From NCBI GenBank assembly GCA_001887945.1, contig LDOQ01000311.1, positions 17,638-81,637 of the forward strand: a stretch of DNA of 64,000 nt, written 5' to 3'. The notes under the pieces are model-generated. The model searched no databases. It was not told the DNA's origin and was given only the letters and a program-made list of their open reading frames with translations. Positions within the stretch are counted from its first letter, which is position 1. Every line of letters starts with the position of its first letter. A program made the position numbers and the translations under genes. Shown in pieces: positions 11,665-63,871 of this stretch. The DNA is from Spraguea lophii. Taxonomy: Eukaryota; Microsporidia; Spragueidae.

Positions 11665-12090
11665 CTGAATTTAATGGTTGCTTGATATAACCAAATCATA
11701 AGGTTAATAAGTTCAAGTTTACCACGCTCAGAAAGATTATCAAAACAAAAAAAAAATAAAAAGAACATAGATAAGTATAAGAAATTTCAATGTGTAACTT
11801 AACAATGTTTTCTATATCAAATTCATCGTCAAATTAAAGTGGTACTCAGTTAGTGTAATTTTTATACCTGAATCAATTAATGATTCGGTAAATATCATAT
11901 CAAGATAAGAATCTCAATAAGAATGTTATAATAAAATATATAATATATTAACATCTTAGAATATAAAGCAAGATGGGATTAATGTATATATATAACAAAC
12001 CCAGTTAATACAAATTATCATTGTTTTAAAAAAACACGTAATTTCATATTATGATAAGGATATATCTTACTAAAGAATTTCATTTAATTA
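11665..12090 (+). mobile_element. tRNA-headed SINE, old decayed copy (copy 2)
   Basis: The head survives as taatggttgcttgatataacc...aagttcaagtttaccacgctcag, followed by blocks matching the SINE body (ttaaagtggtactcagttag; gggattaatgtatatat; acccagttaatacaaat). Most G and C positions of young copies are A or T here. The end is approximate. Confidence 0.7.
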
Positions 12091-21180: not shown

Positions 21181-21475
21181 GTACGTTTAAAGCTTAAAGA
21201 AATATTTTTGTTTAATTAAAAAAATAATGAAATCTTGATTTATTTATTTTTTAGACAATTAAAAAATGTAAGTTTAAATAAAAGGATTTTACAGCTAATT
21301 CATAATATTATTTTTTTTAACATAGAAAAATAAGATACATTATTATAACATAATTATTTTATATTTTCCTTATATTTCTATTCAACTCACAATTCTCGCA
21401 AAGCTTTTCTGGGAAATATTATTTTTATAAATACAATTTTTTTTAAAAAATTAAAATACCGAACAATAAATATAA

Positions 21476-21930
21476 CTCGCTCAGCCCAGTGGTCGTGGGG
21501 TGGTAACCAAATTCCAAGCCTGGCGAGTTCGAATCCTCATCCGAAAAATTTTCAAAAAAACATAATAATAAAAGGTTGTTGAGTGGGTGAAGGGTTCAAT
21601 AGTGTAATATTGGATATGTTTTGTATGACAGCCTATTACTCAATTAAAAAATAATGTTTAGCTGGTGTAATTGCAATCACTGTATTGATTTGAGACCCAA
21701 CCAATACTATGCTAAGAAGGAGGTCAGAATTCAGTTCAGGATAACAGAATGATGTTTTTACCGTATGTAAAATCCTAACGTTCTGGAATATAGGTAATAT
21801 GAGATCAATGTATAATATATAATGAAACCAATTAATACAAATTTAAATATGCTTTAAAACCCCAAGGTCATAGACTACGGTAAACTAAAACCTGTCAGAA
21901 AATTTCCATAAATAAAAGTTTCATTTAAAA
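21476..21930 (+). mobile_element. tRNA-headed SINE, moderately decayed (copy 3)
   Basis: The head tcagcccagtggtcgtgggg...gagttcgaatcctcatcc is well preserved. The body (gctggtgtaattgcaatcac; cctaacgttctggaatatag) is partly AT-drifted, and the end is ataaataaaagtttcattt plus A-run. It lies just 3' of the Ccr4 gene. Confidence 0.8.
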
Positions 21931-21980
21931 AATAAATAAACAATCTTTATTACAATAAAATTTAAAATATTTTTTAGAAT

Positions 21981-27466: not shown

Positions 27467-27800
27467 TAAATAATATTAGAATTATTTTATAATTTTTTAT
27501 GTTTTATTGGAAATTAAACTTTTAGATTGTAGGATATACACTTTATGTATTCTGGGTTAAGAGTTAAAATGACTTTTATTTTATATAACAATTTATCTGA
27601 TATATTGATAGGTGATGATCGACGATTAGTTTATACGTGATCGAGTATGATAGATGAAACTGTTTTCGTCTATGTAAATAGATTTTTTAAATGAATTATA
27701 CTATTTTTTAAGACCTTTATAATCTTTATAATCTTAAATTATGCGGTAATAGTTAAACTATACATGTTTATATTAATACGGAATATTCGAACTAAAACAG
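27467..27800. other. Conserved upstream block of 5S rRNA
   Basis: No ORF. The sequence up to the 5S gene is kept in both duplicate units, including gaaactgttttcgtctatgt and tattaatacggaatattcga directly upstream. The latter may be 5S promoter sequence, although duplication alone could explain the identity. Confidence 0.5.
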
Positions 27801-27914
27801 ATACGGCCATATCTACTGAAAATCACCGGATCCCGTCCGATCTCCGAAGTTAAGCTAGTAAGAGCCATGTAAGTATTAAGGTGGGCGACTACTTGAGAAA
27901 GCGTGGTGCTGTAT
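27801..27914 (+). rRNA. 5S ribosomal RNA, copy 1
   Basis: About 114 bases with 5S hallmarks: acggccatatctact, then accggatcccgtccgatct, then gaagttaagc, agagccatgt and a 3' strand gtgctgtat that pairs with atacggc at the 5' end (one G-U). The internal control region is in place and a T-run (27914-27920) follows as the pol III terminator. RNA polymerase III makes it and it joins the large ribosomal subunit. Confidence 0.93.
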
Positions 27915-28299
27915 TTTTTATTTTTTTTAATTATAATAATATTATTTTAAACAATTTACTTTTCTCTGTATCATTATTATAGTAATTAATATTTAGGATT
28001 ATTTTAAACTGTTATAATTAACCAAAAATAATATGTTGTTTAAAGTAAATTCATGATATATTACAATTATTATTTATATAATAATAATATATGTTTTTTA
28101 TCAAACATCTTGTTGTATGATATTTTACTCTATAATATTGTTGGAGTTGAGAGACCGTAAGTGTGTTCCTTTTGAAAATAGTTATTTTTTTGCTAAAAGA
28201 TCGTTTTAACTTTTAAAAAAGTATATAAAAGAGATTTTGATGGTAAAAATTGATGTTATTAATAGGATAGAATTAATTTCATTGATGAGAAAATCATAA
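27915..28299. other. AT-rich block shared with unit 2
   Basis: 27960-28145 is repeated at 37618-37889 in unit 2. It contains the empty target site (gtaat, 27982-27986) of the 1.66-kb element inserted in unit 2. Confidence 0.7.
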
Positions 28300-28830
28300 G
28301 TTTTTTTGTCTATTTGGTGGATTCGGGTATTTTGAAAAAATCGGAAAAATGTTCTAAATGTAAAAATGTATTGAAACTGATGATTGATGAAGACCTAAAC
28401 AAATGGTTGTTGAATTGTACAATTTCAAATGCACAAATACTTCATTTTCTACCCAAAAAAAACATTATTATATGGTTTGAAGACATTTTTATCGAAAATT
28501 TTATTGGTAATTTACGATATTTCAAAAAAAAACAAAAAAAAATTTAAGAGAAAACAGTATTTCTAATATTGCCTATGTAAATGTTACTAATATATTATGG
28601 AATAAAATAAAATATCGACCAAAAAAAGAATAAGAGGGGGAAAATAAACAGCTGAGGTCGATGAAATTTATCTTACAAAAATAAGTAAAATAAAGATAAA
28701 ATAACAAAAAAACAATGGTGTGTTGGAGTAGTATGTAGAGAGGCAGAAAGTGTTTTTTGGAAAATAACTACTAAAAGAAATGTAACAAAACGTAAAAAGC
28801 GAACAACCACTATTCCTAACCCGTGGAAAA
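28300..28830 (+). pseudogene. Merlin (IS1595/ISXO2-like) transposase remnant 1
   Basis: Broken by several stops and shifts. The N-terminal zinc-ribbon trace is LKKSEKCSKCKNVLKLMI. Downstream frames give a DDE-type piece (VDEIYL-like, then CREAESVFWKITTKRN), as in ISXO2-like transposases, where VDE carries the first acidic residue. No terminal repeats were found, so the element limits are unknown. Confidence 0.6.
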
Positions 28831-28976
28831 CGGTTATACTTTATTGATTAGAATGGATTATTTTCGTTATAGCGTAAATAACCTAGGAATTTTGTAAATC
28901 TAAATAACCTTGTAATTCGCACATAAAACATAAAGAATAAATGGGAACAAATGAAATATTTTTTAATAACAAGAGA

Positions 28977-29465
28977 TTTTTTACGAATGAAACTTTTATT
29001 TATCAAAGCTTCCTGGCCGGTTGCGGCCTACCATGGTCTGAGACCTTCGGTTCCTCGAGCGAAATTAAACTTGTACTAACTGGTTTCGCTACAGATATGC
29101 ATTAATCTCATCTTACCTTATGCTCCAGAGTGTTAGGATTTTGCGTCTGGTGCGCGTCGCCGCCCCCACTTCCAGCTCTTAAGGAATTCCCAGCCTCTTT
29201 CGTTGCATAGTATTGGCCGAGTCACTAATCAATACAGGGATTGCAACTACATCAGCTGAACACTACTTTAATCTAGTAGCGGGGCCGTCATACAAGGCAC
29301 AGCTATGCTGCGCTATCGAAACCTCACCCACTCAACAACCTTTTTCTTCTCTTCTCCGTTTATTATTATTCTTTTTTTGTTTTGAAAATTTTTCTGGATG
29401 AGGGATTCGAACCCGCCAGGCTTCGGGTTTGGTTACCACCCCACGACCACTGGGCCGGGCGGGAC
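28977..29465 (-). mobile_element. tRNA-headed SINE, young copy (copy 4)
   Basis: Almost identical to copies 1 and 7. Target-site duplication taataacaagaga (28964-28976) and taataataagaga (29466-29478), 12 of 13 matching. The tRNA-like head is at the right on the minus strand. Confidence 0.85.
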
Positions 29466-29478
29466 TAATAATAAGAGA

Positions 29479-29916
29479 ATTTAATAGAAATAAAAATATA
29501 AAAAATTATATAGAAAATATTTTTATTTATATGAAAAAAATGCTCATTTTCCGCATTATTGGACTTATTAAAGGTTATTTGATGGATTTATTTTCTTTTA
29601 AAACTATTCATATACCTTTTTTGAAAGTTAAAACGACTTTTTACCTATATTTTATCTTCGGAATATTAAAATGTATAACTTTATTAATTTAAAAATATGA
29701 AAATAATTTTATTAATAAAATAATAATAAATAAACTATAAAACAAGTATATTATAATTGATAAAGTATACATTTCATTACTTCAAAAATAATATATTCTG
29801 TAATATTTTTACAGATTGTATCGTATAATAATGTTTCTATCTAAAAAAGTATTATTTATATAATATTCTTTATTTTAATTATTAAAGTCTATTTAATCGT
29901 ATAAAAAAACAATATC
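29479..29916. other. Spacer before the secreted-protein gene
   Basis: No ORF with an acceptable start. From about 29790 the sequence (tattctgtaatatttttacag) matches 38855 onward, so this is the upstream region shared by both paralogues. Confidence 0.6.
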
Positions 29917-30558
29917 ATGTATTTGTTAGTTTTTTTTATTTCGCTGATTTATTCTACTACGAGTCTTGTTGGTTTTACAAAATACATTCTTGATTACGGT
30001 AAACAACTTAAACAGTGTTCTGATCTTACAGATATAGATTTGAATAAAGCCATTTCAAATATGGCAGTAAGACATAAGCATAGATTGAAAATTGCTATGA
30101 AACAATTAAAAGCTCGAGATGAACCTGAGGATAGTTTAACTGTTTTGACAAAAGCATTTGGTGAAGCATGTGAGATGACATTGTTTGGCAATAGGATAAA
30201 AGCTGATAAAAAAGATGGTTTGATTAAATTAATAAAAGATGATTTGGTTTTTGGAGAGATAGAATTTTTAATGGGTATATATAATATTTCATCAATTTTT
30301 AATGCTGATAAGATTATGGGAAAAACACCCAAAGATATGTTTGATGAGTATTGTGAAAATTTGATTTCTTTTATAAACAATGATGCTTGTATTTATCGAA
30401 ACACGATTCAAATGATGGCCAATCATATGAGTGAGATAGATAAATTGTATGATGATCTTATGAACAATTATATAAATCATTTAAATGAGATAAATATGTC
30501 TAAATCTATATTGTATGATATGGGAATAGAAGAGGTGCCGTTGGGGTTGAAAGATTAA
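29917..30558 (+). CDS. Secreted protein, unknown family (intact paralogue)
   Basis: The 213-residue protein has an N-terminal signal peptide (YLLVFFISLIYSTTSL, cleavage likely near 16-20), then a helical soluble region with a few cysteines (CSDL, ACEM, YCEN, ACIYR). I recognise no domain. The best conserved stretch against the paralogue at 38976 is MAVRHKHRxxIAMKQLKARD (about 50-69). It lacks the CCC motif. The gene sits in a duplicated, transposon-rich segment, typical of fast-evolving lineage-specific secreted proteins, so a role at the host interface is plausible but unproven. Confidence 0.7.
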   Translation: MYLLVFFISLIYSTTSLVGFTKYILDYGKQLKQCSDLTDIDLNKAISNMAVRHKHRLKIAMKQLKARDEPEDSLTVLTKAFGEACEMTLFGNRIKADKKDGLIKLIKDDLVFGEIEFLMGIYNISSIFNADKIMGKTPKDMFDEYCENLISFINNDACIYRNTIQMMANHMSEIDKLYDDLMNNYINHLNEINMSKSILYDMGIEEVPLGLKD

Positions 30559-30581
30559 AATGGATATTCTTTTATATTTGA

Positions 30582-31045
30582 GTTTTTTTCATGAAACTTT
30601 TGTTTATTAAAATTTCCTGGCTTGCCGCGACCTATCATGGCCTATGATCTTTGGTTCTCAAAGCACGTTTAACTTCTACTAATTGGCTTAGCTACAGATA
30701 CATATTAATCTTATTTTATCTTATGCTTCAAAACGTTGGGATTTGATGTATAATGCACGTTATTACACATTCTCAGCTTTTTTAGAAATTTCTAGTTTAT
30801 TTCTTAGCATAATATTGACTAGCTATAAATAAATGTACTGATTGCAATTACACTAGTTAAACATATTTTAATCTAATAATGGGCCCGTTATATAAAACAT
30901 AACCAATGTTACGCTATCGAACCCTCATTCATTCAACGATCTTTCTCTTTATTTCTGCTTTTATTTTTTTTTAAAATTCTTCTGGATGATTATCGAACCA
31001 GCTGCTTAGGATTTGGTTACCATCCCAGACCACTGGACCAGGCTA
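30582..31045 (-). mobile_element. tRNA-headed SINE, decayed (copy 5)
   Basis: Same order as young copies on the minus strand (ctggcttgccgcgacctatcatgg at left; accactggaccaggct at right) with many C-to-T and G-to-A type differences. The equivalent copy in unit 2 is at 39641-40102, so this insertion predates the segmental duplication. Confidence 0.8.
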
Positions 31046-31760
31046 GCTCTCAAAAAATTCCAGATCCATATTTTTTTTCATAAAAAACAATTTTTGTTTT
31101 GAAAAGGTTTTGCAAAGTTTAATTATAAAAATTAAATAAAATAAATTTATTGGCGTGTTTGATTTCTTTTTTGAGGTAAGCAAAGTCAACAACCTTGAAA
31201 TTTTTTATAATCATACTGGTATAGAAATCGTTTTCGTTGCAAAGTATACAATAAATCTACATTTTTGCGATATTTTAGAAAATTTTTATCGTTACTCAGA
31301 TATCATTAAACTTTTAAATATTCAAATTAACTCTTTATTTTTAAATAAGTAAATGTATCTTGATGTTCAAATTTAAATTAATAGAAATCTATACGATTTA
31401 TAAAAGGTATATAAATATAATAAGACGATGGTATGCTTTCCAATCAAATAATAATTAAAAAGAAAATTCTTATTTTATTTGTTACAATAAAAATAATCAG
31501 TATTTAGATAAATAAAATAAACCTTAAAAACAGCTATTGTTCAGCTTTCAATATGCACGACCTATAAAATTCCAGGAATATTATTAATTAATGATTGACC
31601 ATCTAAATTAATTAAAACCCGAAAATACCGAAAATTTAAAACAAATTTTATATTGCAATGCGAATATAAGATTATGCTTTTATACTTTGTATATTTCTAT
31701 GTGTAGATTTGGATGTATTATTTTTTACAGTTTCGCATATTTATCCAACCACATAGTATT
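31046..31760. other. Spacer between SINE and decayed LRR gene
   Basis: A 65-codon frame at 31155-31352 has only a GTG start and no known domain. The first 50 bases match unit 2 up to the Merlin insertion at about 40150; the rest is absent from unit 2. Confidence 0.45.
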
Positions 31761-31799
31761 TTATTTATAACCAAGACAATTACATACACGAATTAAATT

Positions 31800-34249
31800 C
31801 ACTCGATACAACCATCTATGTAAATACCAATAATCTTTCTATTGACATAACAATACCAAAAATTATTTACGATTGTATAAAATTAAAAGTTTTCAACTAT
31901 GAAAACAGCTTTTTGAAAACATTATCCGAAGATTTTCGTAACTTATCCAACTAAGAACACTTGGTATTGAATAATAACAAATTTACTGAAATACCAGATG
32001 TTATATTTTCATTGACAAATTTAAAAACATTAGAAATGAATAAAAATAATATAAAAGCCATTCCCACCAATATTAAATACTTGAAAAGTTTAGTATATTA
32101 AAATTATCGAAAAATTTTCTTATATATATACCTTATTATTTAAGTGAACTTCCACAACGTACATTTAGATTTATCATATAATGAATATATGTTTTTAACA
32201 TCGGAAGAAAAACATATTTATTTTTTCTATATTATAAAAAGTTTTAATTTAAAATTTGTATATTTGGACGGCACTCTCTTTAGATTTATACCAAAAAAAT
32301 TTAATTTTTAAAAAATAGAAGAATTTCATGCAAATACAAACAAACTTTCTACCATTCCTCTAAATACTTTAAAAAATTCCATTTGAAAAAAATATTTCTT
32401 GATGGCAATTGTTTCAAAGAAGTGCCAAGGAGTATTTTAATGTTAGATGCAATTGAAACAATTTCTATTAAACAAATTATATTCAAATGGGTTTTATAAT
32501 AAAGAACATAGCATCGTCAAATTTAATATTTTTAGATCAAGTTATAATAGAATTAAGAATTGTTATATGTCATTAGATTCTGTCCCATCTTTAGAAATAT
32601 TAAAGTTAAACGATAATTATACAAAAAATTTTATAGTGAAATCCATAAAAAATTCATCCTAAAAAAGAATTTATCTAAGAAAAACAATTTATCGGTCTTA
32701 GGCAAAAATTTTTTTTGGTTTCAAAAATCTCGAGTTTTTGAATTTATGGGACAATAATATTTATAAGATTGATTATTTAAATACCATAACACATATAGAA
32801 CTTACATTGAAACTGACTTTGTATCATAAAAATGGGATGGCAATCTTTTCTATACACGGCTTTTCAACAAAATCAGTTTATCGTGTCATTAGGCACCAGA
32901 AGATGAAAACAATTTAAATATATTTAAACGGTATAATGAAGCTAAAGTGAAGACTCTAAAACCAAAACATTGTTATCTTTCAAAAATCTCAAATGATATA
33001 GAAAAACTTGTTTCTCTAGAAAATTTATATTTTAGACATAATTACTTAAAAAAAGTATATAATTATTTTAAAGATTTACATTCTTTAAAAATTCTTGACT
33101 TATCTTATAATAACATTGATTTTATTGATCCAGATATTTTAATGTTAGATTCTTTAAATGTTTTAAATCTCGCAAAAAAACAAATTTCAAACATTTCCGA
33201 TATCTATTAAATGGTTTAATCACCACAAGCTTTCGATCGATTGACGGAAGAATGCCATTGTATTTGCTTTTAATGATCCTTGGTTGGGATTGTTGCAATT
33301 ACCTCTTAGATGTTCAAGAACAATATGTATTGATGATAAAGAAAATATTTCAAAGTATATAACTGCTAGTAATATATACAAAAATGATTTTAAAAATTTA
33401 TATCAATGGAATCTTAAAAAACTGCTGAAATAATATCAAATGAACCAAATGTTGAATATTTATCATATACTGAACTTATAGAATTATGGATTTTGTGTCT
33501 AAAGTCACATGTAATAACAGATAATATAAAAGATGCAATCGAAGAATATATTAATGCTTATATTGAATAAATAACAATGCGATACTTATTATTACCGAAT
33601 TTAATCCCAAACAAGATGATATAATACGAACTTATTTAAATGCTGTGTTCACCATTATAAAAGAAAAAGAAGATTCTCAATAAATAAAAAATACATGTAC
33701 AGCTATTTTACAAGAAACGAAATTTTGTTATGATGCCCAATATGAAATGCTCCAACACATATACATTCCATTAAAAACAGAGGATGTTTCTGATATCACA
33801 TATTTTATAAAAGAAATTATTTACAAAATAAAATATAATACTCTTTCAGATATATTTACTTCAAATAGACATGATCAAAGTGTGTATATCTTGATCATTG
33901 GAGAAATAAATTATCAGAAGAATCGGATTTATAAAAAACGAACTTAAATATAATCACCAGCTTAATTTTTATTTAAACGATAACAAATCATATATTCTGT
34001 ATCAATTTTTCTTGTATTTAAGGTAGACGATGTTGTAACCAAGATACTCGAAAAAATTAACAATAATGGTAAATTTATATGTCTTACATCACAATTAATA
34101 ATAAAACATGAACCTGATGAGACTCAATTTAAAAACTATCTAATATTCAATGATATTGATATGTTGGAGGTAGGAAATATTAGAAGAAAAGGAATGATTT
34201 TCATATTGGGAAATATGAAATTTATACATAAAAATGGATCTGGAATATA
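31800..34249 (+). pseudogene. Decayed leucine-rich-repeat protein gene
   Basis: At least ten stops and frame changes, but joined readings give clear LRR units: EHLVLNNNKFTEIPDVIFSL, LKTLEMNKNNIKAIP, VSLENLYFRHNYLKKV, LKILDLSYNNIDFI. A non-LRR C-terminal region follows from about 33230 to 34249, with pieces such as NDPWLGLLQLPLR, then AQYEMLQHIYIPLKTEDVSD and VVTKILEKINNNGKFI. It resembles a family of LRR proteins with a common C-terminal part. Only the last roughly 25 codons remain in unit 2 (41141-41208), the middle being replaced by a Merlin element. Confidence 0.7.
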
Positions 34250-34462
34250 AATAAAGAAATTATAACCATTGAAATTAATTACGTCTTCAGCTAACTTATT
34301 TTCAACAATTATGCGTGGACAAAATAATATTAATATTTTATATAAACGCGTGTACGACAATAATCGTGAAACTTCATTTTAAAAATTGATTTTTAAATAA
34401 TATTTATTTTATTATTTTAAAATAAAGTTTTTGTTTATATATTTCTCATGTTTTTATTATGC

Positions 34463-34907
34463 ACGGGCCCGCTTGGTCCAAAGGTCGTGAGGTGGTAGTC
34501 ACATCTTAAGTTAGCGATTTGAGTCCTTCACCCAGAAGAATTATCAAAAAAATAAATAAATAGGAGTGGAAGGTTGTAAGTAGATGAGGGTTCGATAACT
34601 CAGCATTGGCTGTACCTTATATGGTGATCCGCGACTAGATTAAAGTAATGTTTAACTCCGTAATTCCAATGTCTATATTGATTTGGGCTCGACCAATATT
34701 ATGCAAAGAAAGAGGTTAGGAATTTCGAAAAAATTGTGAGCGTCGCAACGTATACCATGCGTAAAATCATAATGTTCTGAAGCATGAGGTAAGATATGAT
34801 TAACGTATATTTGTAGCGAACCAGTTACTACAAGTTTAATTGTGTTTAAGAGTCAAAGGACAGCAGCCGCCTAGAAAATTTTATAAATAAGAGCTTCATT
34901 AAAAAAA
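34463..34907 (+). mobile_element. tRNA-headed SINE, decayed (copy 6)
   Basis: The head reads gcttggtccaaaggtcgtga...gatttgagtccttcaccc. The body retains tagattaaagtaatgtttaa and gcgaaccagttactacaag. It pairs with copy 9 (41419-41935) in unit 2. Confidence 0.75.
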
Positions 34908-35169
34908 GTCGAATTTAATTACTAAATTGTATTTTGGAAACTTATGCTAAAAAACTATTTTTATTTAATATTTAGTTTCTTAAATATCTTAAAGATGGGA
35001 AGGTCATTCTTTGAAAGATGCTGTTTAATATATCAATCATTTACTTTTCATCAGCCATCTTCTTTTATTGCGTATACAACAATGTTAAATTTTGTTAGCT
35101 CATTTCTATATACTTTATGCAATCGTGAATAAAACAATGTGTACAGCGTTAATTATTCAGTAACATAAA

Positions 35170-35423
35170 ATATCACTGATAATCCTAGTATTCCTATGAA
35201 TAATAATGTTAATAATATTTTGAATATTAGAAGTGGCGATGTTAAAGATAATTATTTATTTTCTATATTTATTGAAATTTTTATAATATTGTTATCTATG
35301 CATAGAGAGATAATAGAGGAGAAATATGAAAAAGAAGTTAATTTGTTGAGAGAATTAATAGATAGGGAAGTTTCTATGGAAGAGAAATATATTTATTTAG
35401 ATGGTTATATAAGTAATATATAA
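35170..35423 (+). pseudogene. Duplicated 3' fragment of the UTP15-like gene
   Basis: About 75 codons matching the last part of 25256-27466 (FIEIFIILLSMHREIIEE; EVSMEEKYIYLDGYISNI) with a handful of substitutions. There is no 5' end or promoter, so this is a gene scrap carried along by the duplication. Confidence 0.85.
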
Positions 35424-35770
35424 TAAATAATATTAGAATTATTTTATAATTTTTTATATTGTATTAGAAATTAAACTTCTACATTGTAGGATACACATTC
35501 TATGTATTCTGGGTTAGGAGTTAAAATGATTCTTATTTTATATAACGATTTATCAATGAAATAAAGTATTGATGACTGATTATTGATGGTTAATTTATAA
35601 AGTGATCGAGTATGATAGATGAAACTGTTTTCGTCTATGTAAATAGATTTTTTAAATAAATTATACTATTTTTTTAAGACCTTTATAATCTTTATAGTAT
35701 TAAATTACTTAATGATGATTAAATTATATATACATGTTTATATTAATACGGAATATTCGAACTAAAACAG

Positions 35771-35884
35771 ATACGGCCATATCTACTGAAAATCACCGGA
35801 TCCCGTCCGATCTCCGAAGTTAAGCCAGTAAGAGCCATGTAAGTATTAAGGTGGGCGACTACTTGAGAAAGCGTGATGCTGTAT
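35771..35884 (+). rRNA. 5S ribosomal RNA, copy 2
   Basis: The same 114-base gene as 27801-27914, with two differences that I can see (taagccagtaag for taagctagtaag, and gcgtgatgct for gcgtggtgct). The acceptor-type terminal stem, internal control region and T-run are intact, so it is probably functional. The change near the 3' end lies close to the terminal stem. Confidence 0.92.
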
Positions 35885-35959
35885 TTTTAATTATTTTTTT
35901 AATTATAATAATATTATTTTAAAACAATTTACTTTTCTCTGTATAATTATTATAATAAT

Positions 35960-37617
35960 TGTCGTGGGCAATTACATTTTTTTAGCCAAAGGATTCTCAA
36001 GAATTGTAAGATTTTAAAATTAATTTATTAGAAGATAACACACTCAAAAAAGATGGGGTTGCCAACCTGCTCAATATTTATATCAAGATGGAGGGAAAAA
36101 AAGAGGGAGTTTTTGACAGTTACAAAAAAGATAATTTTTATTATCTATTTTATAAATATAAAAAATGTTTAATAAACCATACTTAAATCATAGAAACTTT
36201 TTTTGAAAATATAAAAATTATCGTAATTTTTATTCGAAAAAGCTTCTTTAATAAAAAGTAATATTTCTTTTCTTATAATATTGATCAATCTCTTTATTCT
36301 TTTATAACAATCAATATGCCATGGTAAATAAAGGTTCTTTTTAATATATGAATAATGTACTGGATATTTTAATGTAACATTATAAGTTACAAAAAACAAC
36401 ATAAAGATTAGATATTTGAAAATGGATATAAAAAATAATTTTATTAAAGAATAAATATAATAATTTTAATTGTTTAAGATTATAAAAAAATTTAAAATAA
36501 GAATAACAGAAATGTATTTATTGCATTTAACTTTAAAATATCTTAACTTAATCTATCATATCGTGGAGATATATAATTTTATTAGTCATTGGTTATTCAA
36601 ATGAAGATAGGCTGAAAAAATTAATTTTTTAAAATAAAATACCCGCCCGGCCCAGTGGTCGTGGGGTGGTAACCAAACCCCAAGCCTGGCGGGTTCGAAT
36701 CCCTCATCCAGAAAAATTTTCAAAACAAAAAAAGAATAATAATAAACGGAGAAGAGAAGAAAAAGGTTGTTGAGTGGGTGAGGTTTCGATAGCGCAGCAT
36801 AGCTGTGCCTTGTATGACGGCCCCGCTACTAGATTAAAGTAGTGTTCAGCTGATGTAGTTGCAATCCCTGTATTGATTAGTGACTCGGCCAATACTATGC
36901 AACGAAAGAGGCTGGGAATTCCTTAAGAGCTGGAAGTGGGGGCGGCGACGCGCACCAGACGCAAAATCCTAACACTCTGGAGCATAAGGTAAGATGAGAT
37001 TAATGCATATCTGTAGCGAAACCAGTTAGTACAAGTTTAATTTCGCTCGAGGAACCGAAGGTCACAGACCATGGTAGGCCGCAACCGGCCAGGAAGCTTT
37101 GATAAATAAAAGTTTCATTCGTAAAAAAAATTTAAAATAAAAAAAAATATGTAATTTGGTTTTTTTAAAAATATTAAAAATTGGAAAAGAAAACACCAAA
37201 TCCATTGTTTCTTTCTGTAATCTTGAAATATCTTTCTAATTTGTACGGTAAATATATATCTTAATGGGAAAAAATTTATGTAAAAAAACCTACTTAAGAC
37301 ATAATCTGAAAAGAAAATAAAAACACCATTTATTATAAATATATAATGGCTAGCTACATACAGAATATTGGATTATGGGATAATCTCTATAATAGTTTTT
37401 TTTGAAAAAAATTAATTGCCCGCGGGTAAACTTGCAAAAAACAGGGAAAAAAGAAGAAGAAAGAAGAAAAGACCATACATATAACTAATAATTTTTAATT
37501 CTAAAACTTGGACTAGCAAGCCATTGTCTTTTCGCGTGTAGTGGCCAAGTTCAATTAAATAGAAGTCTAATATTTTTCATAGAAAAATATTGTCCTCCTA
37601 TTTAATTGCCCTCGGCA
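35960..37617. mobile_element. 1.66-kb non-autonomous DNA transposon with terminal inverted repeats
   Basis: The ends are tgtcgtgggcaattac (35960-35975) and ttaattgccctcggca (37602-37617), inverted repeats matching at 13 of 16. The target-site duplication is ataat (35955-35959 and 37618-37622). Unit 1 keeps the empty site. A subterminal imperfect hairpin (caattaaatag ... ctatttaattg, about 37552-37607) and an internal TIR-like string (aattgcccgcgggtaaac, about 37411) are present. No transposase is visible; a 77-codon frame at 36169-36402 (minus) is unrecognised. A young SINE is nested in it. Confidence 0.75.
36641..37130 (+). mobile_element. tRNA-headed SINE, young reference copy (copy 7)
   Basis: About 490 bases. 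The tRNA-like head (about 36641-36715) has ggcccagtggtcgtgggg (box A), a possible anticodon-type stem ggggt/acccc, and gggttcgaatccctc (box B). The unique body follows, and the 3' end is gataaataaaagtttcattc plus an A-run. Perfect 12-bp target duplication tttaaaataaaa at 36628-36639 and 37131-37142. By analogy the internal boxes would drive pol III transcription. Confidence 0.88.
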
Positions 37618-38975
37618 ATAATTAATATTTAGGATTATTTTAAATTGTTATAATTAACCAAAAATAATATGTTGTTTAAAGTAGAATTCATGATAGATTA
37701 CAATTATTATTTATATAATAATAACATAAGAGGTATATTTTTGTCCATATAAATAAATTTTCTGTTTAAAAAAATAACATTTACAATTGTATTTCTGTAT
37801 TCTTAATGAGAATACATTAAGAGATAGATAATATTTATGTTTTTTATCAAACATCTTGTTGTATGATATTTTACTCTATAATATTGTTAAATTGGATACT
37901 TTACGTATGCCGTTTAAAAGTAATTAATTTTTTTACTCTTGAAAATATAATATTAAACAATAAATAGAAGTTTAATTAGGTTATTGTAACGTCATTTCTT
38001 TATTCCTCGTAAATGTAGAAAAGTTTAAAAAAAATATAATTTATTGGAATTTAATTATTTTTTAATGACAAACTTTTCATTCTACATTACCTACCTTTTA
38101 TCGTATTTCTGTGTATATTGGTTTCCAGGTCTTTGAAATTTTTATTATGGTCTACAATATAATGTTTTATCTCTATATTTTTGATATTATATCCTTTTCA
38201 TTGTTTGAATATAATATGGGTTTTTATAATACTGATGGTGTTTTTTTACTTCTATCTTTAATTGTTTTTAAAACAGTAATCTACTATTGTTTCTCGCTAC
38301 GAATCCATGTCCCACTTCCATCGGCCCGTACCCTCTGGTATATTTCTTCCTACCAAGTTTTCACTATCTATTTCTATAATTGTATTTTTTATCCTTATTT
38401 TAATAGGATTTTTAAAGTAATAATTATTTAATTTTCTTTCTAATTCAATTATTATCTTCTTCGACGTAGACTTCAACAAAATCGTGTTATTATTTATCCG
38501 ACAACTTGACGATAACAGAGAAATAACCTTTATTATTTCTGCCCAGTTTTTTATTGTTAGAAAAACATTGTCAACAAATAAGCTCTTATTTTTTTACATT
38601 TTTTTCGAGAATATCAGACATTATTTTTCTTATTTTTTATTCCCTTCATATTACCAAGACAAAAAACAATTTTAAACATTTAAAACTCGTTTAATAAAGA
38701 ATTGAATATATTTTCCTCGTTTTCTAATTTGATTATATCCAAAAAAAGACATAAATAAAATACCATAATTTCGAATATTTTTATTTATTTCATTTGTTAA
38801 TTATGGATGCATTCAATTTGGGAAATTTTTATTCGTAATTATATTTTAATAAAATATTCTGTAATATTTTTACAGATTGTACCATACAATAATGTTTTTA
38901 TCAAAAAAGTATTATTTATACAATATTCCTATTTTAATTATTAAAATCCATTTAATTGGATAAAAAAACGACATC
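37618..38975. other. Gene-poor stretch of unit 2
   Basis: 37618-37889 repeats 27986-28145, with an insertion around 37730-37835. 37890-38850 has no counterpart in unit 1. A 60-codon frame on the minus strand (38297-38479, ending VGRNIPEGTGRWKWDMDS) lies next to a GC-richer patch, but I recognise no domain. From 38855 it matches the upstream region of 29917. Confidence 0.5.
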
Positions 38976-39613
38976 ATGTATTTGTTCGTTTTTTTTATTT
39001 CTGTGATCTATTCTACTGCAAATCTTATTGATTATATAAAATACATTCTTGAGTACGGTAACCAGCTTAAACAGTGTTCTGATCTTAAAGGTATAGATTT
39101 GAATAACGCCATTTCAAAGATGGCAGTAAGACATAAGCATAGAATAAGAATTGCTATGAAACAATTAAAAGCTAGAGATGAACCCACGGATAATTTAATT
39201 ATTTTGTTAAAAGCATTTGGTGATGCAAGTGAGATGACAATGCTTGGTATTAGGATAAAACCCGAGAAAAAAGACGAACTGATTGAACTAATAAAAAAAG
39301 ATTTGGTTTTTGAAGATGTGGAATTTTTAATGGGTATATATAATATTTCATCGGTTTTTAATCCTAATAAGATTATGGAAAAAACGCCCAAAAATATATT
39401 TGATGACTATTGTGAAAGTTTGATTGTTTTTATAAATAATGGATCTTATATCTGTGAGAACATGATTAAAGTAATGGATAATTGCGTGAGATAGATGAAG
39501 TGTACGATGGTCTTATGAACAATTATATAAATCATTTAAATGAGATAAATATGTCTAAATCTATATTGTCTGATATGGAAATAAAAGAGGTGCCGTTTGG
39601 ATTGAAAGATTAA
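38976..39613 (+). pseudogene. Secreted protein, unknown family (frameshifted paralogue)
   Basis: The paralogue of 29917-30558. The first 172 codons are intact with the same signal peptide (YLFVFFISVIYSTANL) and the MAVRHKHR block. Near 39480 about four bases are missing relative to unit 1 (aattgcgtgagata versus aatcatatgagtgagata), giving an early TAG at 39492-39494. The remaining 3' part (to 39613) stays recognisable in the shifted frame. It might still yield a protein missing about 40 residues. Confidence 0.7.
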
Positions 39614-39640
39614 AGCGTTTATTCTTTTATATTTAAGTTT

Positions 39641-40102
39641 TTTTATGAAACTTTTGTTTGTTAAAGTTTTCGGGCTGGCCACGGCCTATCATGGCCTATG
39701 TTTTTGGTTCTCAAAGTACGTTTAAACCGTACCACCCGGCTTAGTTACAGATACGTATTATTCTCATTTTATATTATGCCCGGGTCGTTGGGATTTTGCG
39801 CATAATGCACCTTATTACACATTCTCAGTTTTTTAGAAATTTCTAGTTTATTTCTTAACATAACATTGACTAAATCACAAATCAAGACTGCGATTGTAAT
39901 TATGCCAGTCAAATACTATTTACCTGATGGCGGACCGTTATATAAAACATAACCAATGTTACGCTATCGAACACTCGTTCATTCAACGATCTTTCTCTTT
40001 ATTTCTGCCTTTTGTTTTTTTTCGAAAATTATTCTGGATGAGGGACTCAAACCCGCTGGGCTTAAGATTTGGTTACCACCCTAGGGCCATTGGATCAAGT
40101 GA
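39641..40102 (-). mobile_element. tRNA-headed SINE, decayed (copy 8)
   Basis: The unit-2 partner of copy 5. It keeps gggctggccacggcctatcatgg at the left and a worn head (gggccattggatcaagtg) at the right. Confidence 0.75.
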
Positions 40103-40150
40103 GCTTTCAAAAAATTACAGATCCATACTTTTTCCATAAAAAAATAATTT

Positions 40151-41140
40151 GGGAATAATGAATATTAACTACCCCAAAAACAGCCTTAAATCATGAATAT
40201 AACAAAAAAACAGATAGATTTAGAAAATAAGATAAATTACTCGAACAAAATTCTTTCTTTTTTGCGGAATATGGGTGTTCTTAAAGAAAATCACAAATGT
40301 TCGTTATGTAAAAGGTATATGAAAACAATAAAAAGTAAGTATAACGATGGTTTTGTTTTAAGATGTCATAGTAAAAGATGTAATTAAAAAACAATTTCCG
40401 TAAGAATTGGTAGTAAATTTATTGAGTAGGATTAAATTACCTTTAATTTCCATAATTCGAGTAATATATGAATGGTCACAAAAGAGAAGTTTAAAAGACA
40501 TAATGAAAGAGGTGGGAATATCCTATAATGGTTTGAAATCGGTATTATCAGTTTTTGAATCTCATATAAAAAAACCAAAAATAAAAAAATAGGAAATGAA
40601 GATAAGTGGGTTGAAATAGATGAATCAGCTATTTCAAAAAGAAAGTATAATGTTGGAAGACTCAATAAACAAATTTGGGTTATTGGAGGTATTGATAGAA
40701 TAACTAAAAAAATGGTTTTTGATGTAACAATTTCAAGAAATGCAAAATTCTTGAGACATACAATTAAGAAACATGTTAAGGAAGGTTCAATAATAGTAAC
40801 AGATTGTTGGAAAGGATACAAAGACCTTCAAAATTTAAATTATAGGCATTTTAAAATTAACATTCGAGAAACTTTTTAGAGCCAAGAAACAGAGAAACAA
40901 ACACACAAACAATAAAAATAAATTGGTGATGGCTAAAAGAATATATAAAAATAAAAAAACCAAAATCTAAACGAGGCGTTTTGGAAGTGATTTCACAATT
41001 TTTTTTTGTTTGGATTTAAGTCTGTTTTTGTGCAAATTCTGTTCGAGCTAAAATGTTTAAAAGGTCTTAAAAATAATTAAAATGCCTTTTTTATTTAAAA
41101 TTAAGACTGTTTTTTCGGGTAGTTAATATTCATTAATGCC
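40151..41140 (+). mobile_element. Merlin-type DNA transposon, about 990 bp (remnant 2)
   Basis: Terminal inverted repeats: aatgaatattaactacccc... at 40157-40188 against its near-perfect complement at 41102-41134, extending imperfectly to about 40151 and 41140. It contains a broken IS1595/ISXO2-like transposase. I see no target duplication; the flanks join what were separate parts of unit 1, so a deletion accompanied or followed insertion. Confidence 0.8.
40193..41020 (+). pseudogene. Merlin transposase, broken
   Basis: Reads across several stops and shifts. Zinc ribbon (HKCSLCKRYMKTIKSKY, then LRCHSKRCN), helix-turn-helix (RSLKDIMKEVGISYNGLKSV), then the DDE core: WVEIDESAISKRKYNVGR (first Asp), IWVIGGIDRITKKMVF, IIVTDCWKGYKDL (second Asp), and a worn third region near 40890-40930. 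These match ISXO2-like transposases of the Merlin superfamily. Not functional as it stands. Confidence 0.8.
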
Positions 41141-41208
41141 GAAGAAAAAGTATAATTTTCATATTGGGAAATATGGAATTTATACATAAAAATGCATCTG
41201 AAATATAA
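41141..41208 (+). pseudogene. Last codons of the LRR gene (unit 2 remnant)
   Basis: Matches 34184-34249 (tcatattgggaaatatg, then tttatacataaaaatg) and ends at the same stop. It is cut off at its 5' side by the Merlin element. Confidence 0.7.
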
Positions 41209-41418
41209 ATAAAAAGATTATAACCATTGAAATTAATTACGTCTTCAGCTAACTTATTTTCGTCAATTATGCGTGGACAAAATAATATTAATATTTTATA
41301 TAAACGCGTGTACGACAATAATCGTGAAACTTCATTTTAAAAATTGATTTTTAAATAATATTTATTTTATTATTTTAAAATAAAGCTTTTGTTTATATAT
41401 TTCTCCTGTAAATATTAT

Positions 41419-41935
41419 GTCCGGTTTCGCTTGGTCCTGTGATTGCGGGGTGATAGTCACATTTCAAATTTAACGAGTTTGGGTCCTTCACCCAGAAAAA
41501 TTTTCAAAAAATAATAATAATAAATAGAAGCGAAAGGTTATTAAGTCGGTGGGACTCATTGGGGAACATTGGCTGTGCCTGTACAACATTTCACATCTAG
41601 ATTAAAGTAGTGTTTAGCTGGTGCAATTACAATCCACGTATTGATTTGTGACTCTGACAATATTATGCCGAGAAAAAGATAAGAAATCTCTAAAAAACTG
41701 GGAGCTCTGACAATATTATGCCGAGAAAAAGATAAGAAATCTCTAAAAAACTGGGAGAACGGCAACGTGCACCATACGCAAAACTTTAACACTCTGATGC
41801 ATAAGGTGAGATTAGAGTAATGCTTATCTGTAGTGAAACCAACTAGTACAAGATTAGATGTACTTTAGGAATCGAAGGGCATAAACCATGGTAAGCTGCA
41901 AGTAATCAGAAAACTTCTATAAATAAAAAACTCAT
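41419..41935 (+). mobile_element. tRNA-headed SINE, decayed, with internal duplication (copy 9)
   Basis: The unit-2 partner of copy 6. A 53-bp part of the body is perfectly duplicated in tandem (41652-41704 and 41705-41757), absent from copy 6, so the duplication is recent relative to the decay. Confidence 0.8.
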
Positions 41936-42399
41936 AAAAAAGCCAGATTTAGTTAATAAATTGTTTTTGAAAAACATATTTTTATTTAATATTCGATTTC
42001 TTAAATATCTTAAAGATGTGAAGCACATTCTTTGAAAGATGCTGTCTAATATGTCAACCATTTACTTCCTATTAATTACCTTCTTTTATTGCATATACAA
42101 TAATGTTAAATTTTGTTAGTTCATTTCTATATATTTTTGCAATCGTGAATAAAACAATGTGTACGGCGTTAACTAATCGTAATATAAAATATCACTAATA
42201 AGATGATTATTCTAAATCAATTCAATTTCTGTGTCGTACCAAACTGCATCAATAATATAGATTAATGGAATATAATTATATAATAAAGTAACTTTAAATA
42301 AATATAGATTTCTATAAAATAAACTTTCAAGTATTTGATTATACAAAAAATATAAATTATATGTTACTTAAACAGTTTAAAAATCATAAATAAATTTTA

Positions 42400-43389: not shown

Positions 43390-43532
43390 AGCATAAGGTA
43401 GATGAAATTAATGCATATCTGTAACGAAACCAGTTAGTACAAGCTTAGATGTATTTGAGGACCCGAAGGTCACAGACCATGATAGGCCGCAACCGACAGG
43501 GAACTTTGATAAATAAAGGTTTCATTGATAAA
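43390..43532 (+). mobile_element. tRNA-headed SINE, 5'-truncated copy (copy 10)
   Basis: Only the last 140 or so bases (gcatatctgtaacgaaacca to gataaataaaggtttcattg). Flanked by a 17-base direct repeat aagggatttgattgagt (43373-43389) and aaaggatttgattgggt (43533-43549), 15 of 17 matching. Loss of the 5' end with an intact 3' end and target duplication is the mark of reverse-transcription insertion. Confidence 0.85.
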
Positions 43533-43549
43533 AAAGGATTTGATTGGGT

Positions 43550-46836: not shown

Positions 46837-47004
46837 TTATGTAAACATGGCAAAAGTATATATTTTTACATACACTTGAATAAGAGGGGTTTCGAGAATA
46901 ATATTTCTCTGTGATAACACGAATAATTTTATTAAATTTATACTTTTTAAAATATTTTTTTGCTTTTTTTATTAATAAGACTTTTATTTATATAAATTTT
47001 CTGG

Positions 47005-47977
47005 GTAAAAGAGCTACCGGGATGGGAACAAAAAAGTATATTATTACAAGAGATTGAAAAGTAAAAAAACTTTAATTTAGTTTAAATAAAACTAACAAAT
47101 CCGAAAAGGCACCTTTTTTTCTGAAAATATAAAAACTCATCAATAAAATTCCTGATATTTTTATATTTATTGGTCTCTTTTGATTTTAGGTATTTCCATT
47201 TGTTTTTAATTCTTAAGTATTCATTTCGGACTTATTTGGGTCAACAAAGAATCTTTTGTGATTAACAATCACGTGCTTATGTGTTGACTTTTTTAAAAAC
47301 CATACCCTTTCCAACAACCTGTAATTAAGATTGTTTTTGATCTTACATTCATATATATGGTTTTTTGGAGTTTATCAAAATTTCTCTTTATTATTATTGC
47401 AAATAGTACATCATCATTTTTTTTATATACATCTCACACAACCCAAATTTATTTTGTTATTTTACCCTATTATATTTCCTCTTAACAACAAAAGATTCAT
47501 CTGTTTCAACTATATGATACCTACTTTTAATTCGTTTTTTAAGGAGATTAGATAATCTTTACCATTATATACTTTTTATTTTTTTAACTGTCTCTTTGTT
47601 TAAACCTGTTTCTTTAATTCTTTTTTTTAATCTTGTTTTTTTTAGAAAAGTCATAAATTATTTCTAAAATTTCACCGTAGGTACGCGTAAATCATAAAAA
47701 AAAAATTATTTTAAGTGAATATCGTTTCCTAACCCATACCCTCTTCTTACAATAAAAATAGGACGCTTTAAACATCTCGCCAACATAAGTAATTAGCAAA
47801 TTTTTACATTTATAACATTTTTTATTTTTTAAAATTATACCTTCTTCTCGTAAAAACGTACCAAAAAATGATGTATTTCGGATAGGATGTTTTAAACCAT
47901 CTCTGTTTTTAATTATTATTTTTCCCATAAGACCTTTAATAATATACTTTTTGTTCCCATCCCAGTAACCTTTTTAT
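47005..47977 (-). mobile_element. Merlin-type DNA transposon, about 970 bp (remnant 3), nested in a SINE
   Basis: Terminal inverted repeats of about 40 bp: ctaccgggatgggaac and aaaagtatattatta on the left (about 47005-47047) against ttgttcccatcccagtaacc on the right (about 47935-47977). The target duplication is about 9 bp and worn (attttctgg 46996-47004, ctttcctgt 47978-47986), the length expected for Merlin. Confidence 0.82.
47050..47928 (-). pseudogene. Merlin transposase, broken
   Basis: On the minus strand, a zinc-ribbon start (KNKKCYKCKNLLITYVGE) at 47692-47928, then, through stops and shifts, VETDESFVVKRKYNRVK (first Asp of DDE, near 47480) and a CWKGYGF piece (near 47320) that replaces the TDCWKGY motif. 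It is the same protein family as the transposase at 40193 but much more decayed. Confidence 0.75.
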
Positions 47978-48476
47978 CTTTCCTGTACGACTACGGCCTA
48001 TCGTGGCTCATGATTTTGGGTCTTAAAACACATTTAAACTCGTATTAACCGGGTTTGCGACATATATACATTAATCTCATCTTCCCCTATGCTCCAGAAC
48101 ATTAGGATTTTGCGTATGATGCAATCATCATTCGATAATCTTTAATGAGATTCTAATGTCTTTCCTGTTATAATCATATAGATTCATAACCCAACACAGG
48201 GATTACAATTGTATCAGTTAAATACTATTTTAATCGAGTAATAGTGATACTATACAAAACATACTAATGGCACACTACTAAACCTTCATTCACTCAACAA
48301 TTTTTCTTTTCTTATCGTTCTTCGATTTTTTACTTTTTGAAAGTTCTTCAATGTGAGGGAATCGAATCCGTTAGTCTTAGGATTAGCTTACTTCCTCACG
48401 ACCACTCAATTAAAAATGTTCTTAATTTCTATTATAATATAGTTTTTATACCCCTATAAAATATAATTAATAAATT

Positions 48477-52451: not shown

Positions 52452-52918
52452 AAGTTGCTTGGTCTAATGGTCGTAGGATTGTAAGCAAATTCTAAGCTGA
52501 TGGGTTCGAATCCACCACGCAGAAGAATTTCAAAAAAAATAGAAGAGGGAAAAAAAGAAAGATTGTTGAATGGGTAAGAGTTCGATGCCGTAATATTAAC
52601 TGTACTTGTATAACGACCCATTACTAGATTAAAGTAATGATTAGCTAATATAATTGCAATCAAAATGTTAATTTGTTATTTGACCAATAATATGTTAAAA
52701 AAGAGATTAAGAATCTCGAAAAATCAACGAGATGCAGTAATATGCATTATACGTAAAATCCTAACATTTGAGCATATGGTAAAATGAGATTAATGCATAT
52801 GTGTTGTGAAATCAGTTAATAAAAATTTAGATGTATTTTATGAACTAAAAGTTATAAACCACAATAGATTGCAATCGGCTATAAAACTTCTATGAATAAA
52901 AGTTTCATTAAAAAAAAT
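52452..52918 (+). mobile_element. tRNA-headed SINE, decayed (copy 12)
   Basis: The head is ttgcttggtctaatggtcgt...gggttcgaatccaccacgc (box B perfect). The body is AT-drifted; the end is gaataaaagtttcattaaaa. Confidence 0.8.
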
Positions 52919-53322
52919 TATAAGTAACAATATTAATACAGTAATATATTATTAAAATATTATTATTATACCCTTCTATAATTTAATTTTAAATATAAAT
53001 GTTATATAAGTATTTTTATTCATTACTATCACCATTACCATTATTATTTTGATTCTTAATTCAAAAGGATTTTATTTCTATAATATTTATAAAAGAAATA
53101 TCTTTATAAGTAAAAATTCTATATTACGTAGTTATCGAGTTAAAATTGTAAATTTTAATTTATTGTTCTTTAGAATATTAATTTTTATTTTGATAAGAAA
53201 AACAAAAGATTAATCATTGGTATATAATAAATATATCATCATTACATGCTATAAATATTTAAAATATTTTTATATCGTTATAATATTTTTTTAAAAATAA
53301 AAAATAAAATATTTTTAGGGGC
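52919..53322. other. AT-rich intergenic region upstream of PP1
   Basis: About 400 bases with no ORF. A GGGG (53318-53321) sits just before the PP1 ATG in place of the usual CCC. Confidence 0.5.
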
Positions 53323-62604: not shown

Positions 62605-62858
62605 TTATGATTCATGGAATGATCAATATTACGTCAAGAAAGAAATGAGAAATCTATAAGAAATTGAGGGGAAACAGCAAAGTGTATCATGCGTAAAATC
62701 CTAACACTTTGGAGTATAATGTAAGATAAAATTAATGCATATTTGTAATGAAACCAGTTAGTACAAGCTTAAATATACTTTAAGAATCAAAAGACATAAA
62801 TCATTATAGACTGTAGCCGTCTAGAAAACTTCTATAAATAAAAAATTTCATTTAAAAA
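62605..62858 (+). mobile_element. tRNA-headed SINE, 3' part only (copy 13)
   Basis: Body and 3' end (atcctaacactttggagtat; attaatgcatatttgtaatg; aaccagttagtacaagctta). The head is missing or decayed beyond recognition. Confidence 0.75.
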
Positions 62859-63164
62859 AAAATAAAATTGTTAATTGATGATTCTAAAGTCCTGATGAAA
62901 ATAAAGATAAAAATCTGCGGAGAAAAAATTATAAACAGATTACTTTATATTTATATATACTACGAAGAATGAATTACTTATGGAAAAAAATAATGAAATG
63001 AAATAAATATTATCAGAATTCAATAAAAAAACTGAAAATACCAAAAATATTTTTTAGAAAGAAATTAATGTGAGTATTGTTCAACACAAGAATATTTTAT
63101 TAAGCCAACTACAACACGTAATATTATTTACTTCAAATATACGTAATTTACAAGCGTAAGTAGA

Positions 63165-63705
63165 GTTTCGTGGTATAATGATCATAAGGATTAAAAAATA
63201 ATGGTAACAAAATGTTATAATTTATTTGGAATGTATAACATTAGACATATTTTATAAATGAAATTTATTTCTTTAATTCAATAGAAGGAAGAACAGAGCA
63301 ATGATAAAGATTCTTTGCCGAACAACACTCGAAACTCATGATTTGAGATCATTCTAAATTCAAAATAAATACGAGAAAAATAACATAATATTACGTCTTA
63401 TACGCAATCTATTGTGCAAATAAAAGAATGTCTGATCAAATTTATAAAATGACTTTTTACAGGCTTTTGACTCACTAGATGATAGATTATGAAAGACGTC
63501 ATAGTTGACATAAAACAAACATTCGCAGAAAAGTGTATTATACGCGTGGTATTAATATTTGAAGTCTAATGTATGCGAGATTAATAAACCCATCAAATAT
63601 CCAGCAATTACAGGTCAAAATATAATTTAAGAACCAAGAATCTCGAATTACTATAATTTTTAACTAATCAGGAAACTTTCATAAATAAAAGTTCAATTTA
63701 AAAAA
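63165..63705 (+). mobile_element. tRNA-headed SINE, very decayed (copy 14)
   Basis: A worn head-like string (tttcgtggtataatgatcataagg) at the left and a recognisable end (aggaaactttcataaataaaagttcaattt) at the right, with drifted body blocks between. The start is approximate. Confidence 0.5.
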
Positions 63706-63871
63706 AAGGAGTTTTAAAATATAAAAATCTAATTGAATTGAAATTATTCATTTATAAATTTTTATTAAAAGTTCAATTTATAAAATAAATATATCTTCAC
63801 CAAATTATAACTGTTGGAATTATTCTTTAACATTGGATGATTATCCGAACTCATTCTTTTTTTAATAACAT

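Follow-up and report, generated by a model that had tools for sequence, protein, structure and literature searches.

A SINE family with a LINE-like 3' tail in the reduced genome of the microsporidian Spraguea lophii

Microsporidia are a textbook case of genome reduction. A repeat found many times over in one 64-kb stretch of the Spraguea lophii genome (the whole stretch analysed, hereafter the window; C18:17638-81637) raises the question of what kind of element it is and which machinery has copied it. The original prediction was of a SINE family, and this is supported by the anatomy of the 478-bp repeat, which is short and dispersed, has a head with box A and box B, ends in an A-tail, lies between target duplications and occurs as both recent and old copies. 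Here we describe these features within the window and across the assembly (5,273,041 bases in 73 contigs), and identify a LINE of the same genome whose 3' end resembles that of the SINE. The ADP/ATP carrier of the host has its closest counterpart, among the 15 proteins listed, in Spraguea lophii (52% identity), so that the host is a microsporidian and not evidently a Nosema or Vairimorpha.

Using window positions 36631-37145 (copy 36641) as the query, a BLAST search of the 64-kb window returned 12 regions matching over at least 146 bp, the query included. Three of these are 98-100% identical to the query, namely the reference copy itself (36641-37130, forward strand), which is flanked by 12-bp target duplications, and two reverse-strand copies at 2761-3247 (98.8% identical, with a 13-bp target duplication) and 28977-29463 (99.6% identical, with an imperfect one). 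The remaining nine are older, with BLAST identities of 66-76%, except for 86% in a 148-bp piece at 43390. Old copies lie on the forward strand at 21465-21940 (22.7% diverged from the young majority), 34468-34900, 41484-41960 and 52468-52930 (28% diverged), with a partial one at 62692-62867, and on the reverse strand at 30567-31043, 39622-40093 and 46973-48406, the last split by an insert of about 0.95 kb with inverted ends. The piece at 43390-43535 (forward strand) is a 5'-truncated copy of which the 3' 148 bp remain, between 11-bp direct repeats GGATTTGATTG that were read by eye. Two further forward-strand traces are a very degenerate copy at 11729-12016, consisting of two short matching pieces of 37 and 54 bp, and a 61-bp remnant of the 3' tail at 63669-63727. 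About fourteen copies of a single architecture had been proposed. All 14 places do match the SINE somewhere, but the uniform architecture does not hold: the copy at 43390 is truncated, that at 62605 partial, that at 11665 in two pieces and that at 63165 tail only, while 46975 and 47978 are one split copy.

Because the copies at 30567 and 39622, and likewise those at 34468 and 41484, are located in duplicated segments, the members of each pair are not independent insertions. Taking such segmentally duplicated old copies once, the BLAST matches amount to approximately 12 distinct insertions in the window. By our own sum over these matches, short remnants included, SINE sequence occupies about 5 kb of the 64 kb. 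The segmental duplication is itself rearranged (window 27544-35182 and 35501-42201), with pieces that are 75-96% identical apart from the SINEs, and carries a 5S rRNA gene, old SINE copies and a gene (29917 and 38976) whose protein product, judged by eye, begins like a signal peptide. When unoccupied twins of the 36641 and 28977 sites were sought in this duplicated block, no clear twin of the flanks was found. The insert in the split copy (47008-47975) has 29-nt inverted arms that are 86% complementary, and is probably a small DNA transposon. Elsewhere in the window, 46 bases separate the young SINE at 2761-3247 from the downstream start codon of a gene at 3293-4222, which by eye looks like a cytidylyltransferase and whose promoter the insertion may influence.

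The copy at 36641 illustrates the organisation of the element, which measures 478 bp without its A-tail there and 478-490 bp across its range. Its GTCCCGCC end is preceded by the 5' target-site duplication TTTAAAATAAAA (36628-36639, forward strand, 12 bp), which is identical to the 3' duplication at 37131-37142. From its sequence and the box B count, positions 36641-36709 form a head with RNA polymerase III type-2 promoter boxes, comprising a box A-like CGGCCCAGTGG (36648-36658), in which this copy has one mismatch, and the box B GGTTCGAATCC (36692-36702). An A-rich spacer follows (36710-36770) and contains the element's only TTTT run (36717-36720, from element base 77), which could act as a weak early pol III terminator. 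The GC-rich body (36771-37045) matches none of the LINE pieces compared and no Rfam family at gathering score. It leads into a LINE-derived tail block with a predicted two-hairpin fold (37046-37094), and the element closes with the terminus ATAAATAAAAGTTTCATTCGT and a tail of eight A's (37102-37130), all on the forward strand.

The majority box A of the other young copies is TGGCCCAGTGG, followed by GGTTCGAATCC at tRNA-like spacing; we take these two to be the consensus of pol III boxes A and B. Allowing one mismatch, box B occurs five times in the window, where 0.18 occurrences are expected, and all five lie inside SINE copies. The head had been called tRNA-like, and its boxes and their spacing agree with this, but tRNA models do not: ARAGORN found no tRNA in the 64-kb window, and for the head Rfam at E≤10 returned no tRNA row. 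The one match it gave, of 9.7 bits, covers 13 bases in the T-loop of tmRNA, and because tmRNA and tRNA belong to one clan a weaker tRNA match could be hidden. At a relaxed threshold on the head alone, ARAGORN made one opposite-strand call that wraps round the ends and was taken as an artefact. Of the 58 tRNA hits in the genome, 40 were compared with the head, which scored best against tRNA-Arg(tcg) (39) and tRNA-Ser(gct) (37), against a maximum of 36 for 300 base shuffles of the head with the same 40 genes. The common stretches are mainly the two promoter boxes. Since the head fails the tRNA models and its likeness lies mainly in the boxes, the parent tRNA that the original prediction hoped to name cannot be given, and "tRNA-related promoter" appears the safer term.

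Outside the window the family is abundant. A 45-base head with up to three mismatches occurs at least 100 times over many contigs, and the reversed pattern used as a control does not occur at all; among the matches listed, at least 76, 17, 4 and 3 copies have zero, one, two and three mismatches, respectively. The best 40 of 447 first-look genome candidates were scored and are all 97-100% identical, together with six neighbouring pieces at 67-86%. The whole-assembly search that the original prediction called for thus yields at least 100 young heads in a 5.27-Mb genome.

We further evaluated the flanks of the 30 best matches to the query, comparing the 5' flank with the sequence after the A-tail and accepting exact repeats. 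Target duplications of at least 10 bp were present in 26 of the 30 copies, as exact direct repeats of 12-17 bp. This is in contrast to flank pairs swapped between copies, of which 1.6% have a repeat of at least 10 bp. The four copies that fail the exact rule are L002 (6 bp), L010 (4), L027 (0) and L029 (8); the repeat of L002 is imperfect, that of L027 is visible but beyond the reach of the rule, and those of L010 and L029 are short or imperfect. Target duplications of 12-13 bp, perfect in the first and seventh of the predicted copies, had been reported for the young copies in the window, and those two are indeed exact, at 13 and 12 bp. A-tail length varies among the copies. These are retroposed insertions.

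The retroposed copies call for a reverse transcriptase acting in trans, and none had been visible in the window. The enzyme is not missing from the genome, and a LINE with a homologous 3' UTR exists elsewhere in it. A search of the contigs with the RVT_1 profile gave nine places. At one of them, the end of contig C72, lies a non-LTR element in which an endonuclease-like region leads into the start of the RT domain; it is cut by the contig end and has part of its endonuclease in a second frame. Its RVT_1 score of 18.5 bits falls below the cut-off of 29.6, the fragment having just the start of the domain, and its frame scores 18.5 bits with Exo_endo_phos_2, below the cut-off of 27.4. P0016 and P0018, which were aligned to this frame by tblastn, exceed the PF03372 cut-off, and a decayed LINE copy on C48 exceeds that for RVT_1 (35.3 bits). 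For the C72 fragment 20 homologues were recovered, all of them carrying an RT domain, an endonuclease domain or both (Pfam), and three of the 20 are named RT proteins (Smittium culicis, Acanthocheilonema viteae and Strigamia maritima). The five best homologues, at 28-39% identity, include the LINE-1-like RT of Smittium culicis and the Acanthocheilonema RT. The GC content of the C72 LINE is 44%, and 31% in the first 500 bases taken, compared with 47% for the SINE.

Older or broken copies of the LINE occur on C48, C1 and C21. The start of C21 holds a C-terminal LINE end with a stop codon near base 1786, followed by the 3' UTR and poly(A). On C1 an old copy combines a piece matching the C72 RT (75%) with one matching the C21 end (84%); the two share a strand and are separated by 205 bp. 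From this we infer a single family for the C72 LINE and the C21 3' end. When the genome was searched with the C21 end, the best 40 of 108 candidates scored contained at least 11 long matches (one of them C21) as well as many young SINEs, which match at query positions 180-234. Two of the LINE copies, on C8 and C6, are 5'-truncated and A-tailed, with flanking direct repeats of 12 and 10 bp, respectively, that were identified by eye with no control. No full-length intact LINE is present in the assembly, where the C72 element is cut and in two frames and the 3' ends lie on other contigs.

The other reverse transcriptases were set aside as partners. That on C73 is of LTR type, with a protease domain adjoining the RT (Pfam), and those on C44 and at C48:16630 are of LTR type by eye from their frames; L042, L043 and L040 denote the pol frames at C73, C44 and C48. 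On C2 the weak RVT_1 matches fall in one asparagine-rich frame of 1239 aa (L047, 1725-5441), by eye possibly a telomerase reverse transcriptase. Further RVT_1 matches on C56 and C5 were not taken as partner. Bases 1-1140 of C21 (L053), which hold the C-terminal part of an apparent second LINE, encode a CPFC..H..C zinc finger and finish in an A-run; they were likewise set aside, having no notable match to the SINE.

The link between the two elements is their 3' tail. The C21 3' UTR (1825-1873) aligns with SINE positions 37046-37094 over 49 bp at 86% identity (BLAST E 1.2e-11 against 4 kb), and the Smith-Waterman score of this block is 65, compared with at most 40 in 2000 dinucleotide shuffles, none of which was as good. 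Ten of 12 LINE 3' ends match the SINE block by BLAST, seven of the ten at 86-93% over 43-49 bp; the best reach 90% over 49 bp and 93% over 43 bp, so that across C21, C63, C8 and others the 49-bp block is 86-90% identical. The two ends among the 12 with no SINE match are C27, which has a gap in the block, and the old C1 copy. A LINE sharing the 3' end of the SINE had been proposed as a check, and this homology supplies it. Beyond the block, the SINE terminus consists of TAAATAAA, about a dozen bases and then A's, and TAAATAAA is present in nine of the 12 LINE rows; this likeness to the AT-rich terminus of the LINE is too weak to be significant alone. Between the hairpin block and the terminus the SINE lacks approximately 100 bp that are present in the LINE, and nothing in the LINE pieces compared, which do not extend to the LINE middle, corresponds to the 400 bp or so of SINE head and body.

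In both elements the tail block is predicted to fold into the same two adjacent hairpins, with z scores of -1.9 and -2.1, a slight advantage over shuffled sequence. The hairpins are unsupported by covariation, with 68 of 200 column shuffles as good, in an alignment of 10 LINE and 10 SINE rows from which SINE 34468 (too short), SINE 48034, LINE C27 and LINE C1 were left out. The LINE copies C8 and C6 are truncated within one base of each other, at the start of the SINE-LINE homology, which is also where the predicted fold of the LINE tail has its 5' foot. The starts of other shortened LINE ends lie at other points, and with n = 2 the coincidence is a hint.

These data lead us to propose, with high confidence, that the repeat is a SINE with a pol III head and a tail from a LINE of the same genome, mobilised in trans by the LINE protein. 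That the two elements form a SINE/LINE pair is the most likely reading, given the homologous tail and the A-tails and target duplications that both leave. According to this model, RNA polymerase III would start at the internal box A/box B head and produce an RNA of about 490 nt, whose end would be the LINE 3' UTR tail, comprising the two-hairpin block, an AATAAA-containing end and poly(A). The endonuclease/reverse-transcriptase protein of the LINE would mistake this RNA for its own by way of the tail, nick a new site and copy the SINE by target-primed reverse transcription, and the insertion would leave an A-tail and a target duplication of 12-17 bp. The copies with their target duplications and A-tails, the promoter boxes, the LINE with its domains and the tail homology are read directly from the sequence; transcription by pol III, tail-based recognition by the LINE protein and present activity of the family are inferred.

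The history of the family can be read from its divergence. The 30 best copies deviate 0.4-1.5% from the column majority, and the nine old copies in the window deviate 22-29%, except for one partial copy at 12%; as the 30 were chosen for closeness, it is the window and the head counts that support the gap between young and old. The coexistence of these two classes agrees with the proposal of recent activity over a long history. The young copies had also been described as GC-rich and almost identical and the old ones as AT-drifted, and in the window GC content is 46-47% in the former against 25-38% in the latter (23.8% for the whole window). Old copies have lost 40% of G/C sites compared with 13% of A/T sites. 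In eight old copies C changes to T at rates of 0.29-0.33 whichever base (A, C, G or T) follows, and RIP-like mutation was rejected as the cause of decay because these rates are independent of sequence context. Of 446 sites, 387 still show the young base in at least half of the old lineages, and 44 are mixed. At the remaining 15, at least 75% of the old lineages have another base; 14 of the 15 are A/T in the old copies and G/C in the young, which parallel decay can explain. The active SINE sequence has therefore hardly changed while the dead copies decayed.

This conservation bears on whether the repeat is instead a family of structured non-coding RNA genes with a host function, the copies being retropseudogenes and not selfish SINEs. 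A near-unchanged active sequence alongside copies drifted by 22-29% implies constraint above that expected of a neutral SINE body, as such a gene would show. On the other side, no Rfam family is reached at gathering score, the LINE-derived tail fits a SINE and not an RNA gene, and the young heads are dispersed in at least 100 near-identical copies; together these make an RNA gene family improbable. The origin of the 3' part in a LINE 3' UTR would also be expected of a truncated, internally deleted LINE, as opposed to a composite SINE. The pol III boxes of the head, and the absence of the roughly 400 bp of head and body from the LINE pieces compared (which exclude the LINE middle), leave this more unlikely still. 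A non-autonomous DNA transposon or MITE scarcely enters into consideration: many DNA transposons are present in microsporidian genomes according to the available text of PMC4202319, and an old SINE copy here probably contains one, but the target duplications vary from 12 to 17 bp, the A-tails vary, the 3' part matches a LINE and the ends of the SINE are, by eye, not inverted repeats. We thus retain the LINE-mobilised SINE.

For this SINE, the frozen GC-rich sequence of about 470 bp allows us to speculate further. One possibility is selection on the entire RNA for its structure; another is that SINE and LINE, both GC-rich, re-enter this AT-rich genome from outside. In addition, the SINE-LINE junction and the 5' ends of the two independently truncated LINE copies all lie within about a base of the 5' foot of the predicted tail fold, so that template switching, or a reverse transcriptase stopping at the fold, would be the origin of the SINE tail. 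Taken together, we regard this reading as doubtful. Neither two DNA patterns nor one LINE protein gave a match in scans of viral contigs.

SINEs with LINE tails are already known, and SINEs have been reported in other fungi; a microsporidian SINE appears to be undescribed in the literature searched. Among the former, the eel element UnaSINE1 is paired with UnaL2. In SINE/LINE pairs with a common 3' tail (PMC3747384), as here, the SINE 3' end is homologous to that of a LINE of the same genome, a tail stem-loop is predicted and mobilisation in trans is assumed. Unlike in the eel, the Spraguea SINE tail lacks about 100 bp of the LINE 3' UTR, SINE and LINE both close with an AATAAA-containing end and poly(A), and the partnership is proposed from sequence. 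In stringent LINEs the protein reads a stem-loop in the tail, according to PMC4176376 and PMC3747384, and the zebrafish elements ZfL2-1 and ZfL2-2 (PMC4176376), which are stringent LINEs, offer a model for this reading here; those closest to our LINE are the five homologues at 28-39% identity given above. AfuSINE2 of Aspergillus fumigatus is a low-copy, tRNA-related fungal SINE of 140-493 bp which likewise has pol III boxes and target duplications, of 4-14 bp (PMC5063351, available text); by comparison, at least 100 young heads of the Spraguea family are present in a genome of 5.3 Mb, and tRNA models do not recognise the head.

Non-LTR retrotransposons have been reported in microsporidia, Spraguea lophii included, and the main texts of the two papers concerned (PMC4202319; PMC13174016), as far as available, describe LINEs and do not mention SINEs. 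The novelty of the family, flagged as needing verification, was supported by a literature search on microsporidia with SINE and repeat terms, which gave no microsporidian SINE among the papers listed. The word SINE has no occurrence in the available main texts of PMC4202319, PMC3749934, PMC12449221, PMC12558613, PMC13174016, PMC10759460 and PMC7313128, whose supplementary repeat tables may differ.

The repeats also mark the limits of the assembly. Three contigs begin at one and the same base of a SINE tail, and a further eight heads are found within the first 400 bases of a contig. Four LINE 3' ends (C63 twice, C11 and C27) are located at a distance of 553-555 bases from the end of a contig. 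The assembly is thus interrupted at SINE and LINE copies, which would account for the absence of a full LINE and makes our counts lower bounds. On another contig, an open frame of 820 aa encodes a Piwi-domain (Argonaute-type) protein (G000:C56:134645-135547); given this gene, RNA interference may act on the SINE and LINE elements.

Together these data indicate that a reduced genome of 5.3 Mb nonetheless sustains a family of non-autonomous retroposons, of which at least 100 near-identical heads occur. In surveys of microsporidian repeats, sequences of this kind may be entered as unclassified. The SINE and its likely LINE partner provide clean insertion markers for strains and species, and the pair offers a small system in which the reading of the 3' tail by the LINE protein can be tested.
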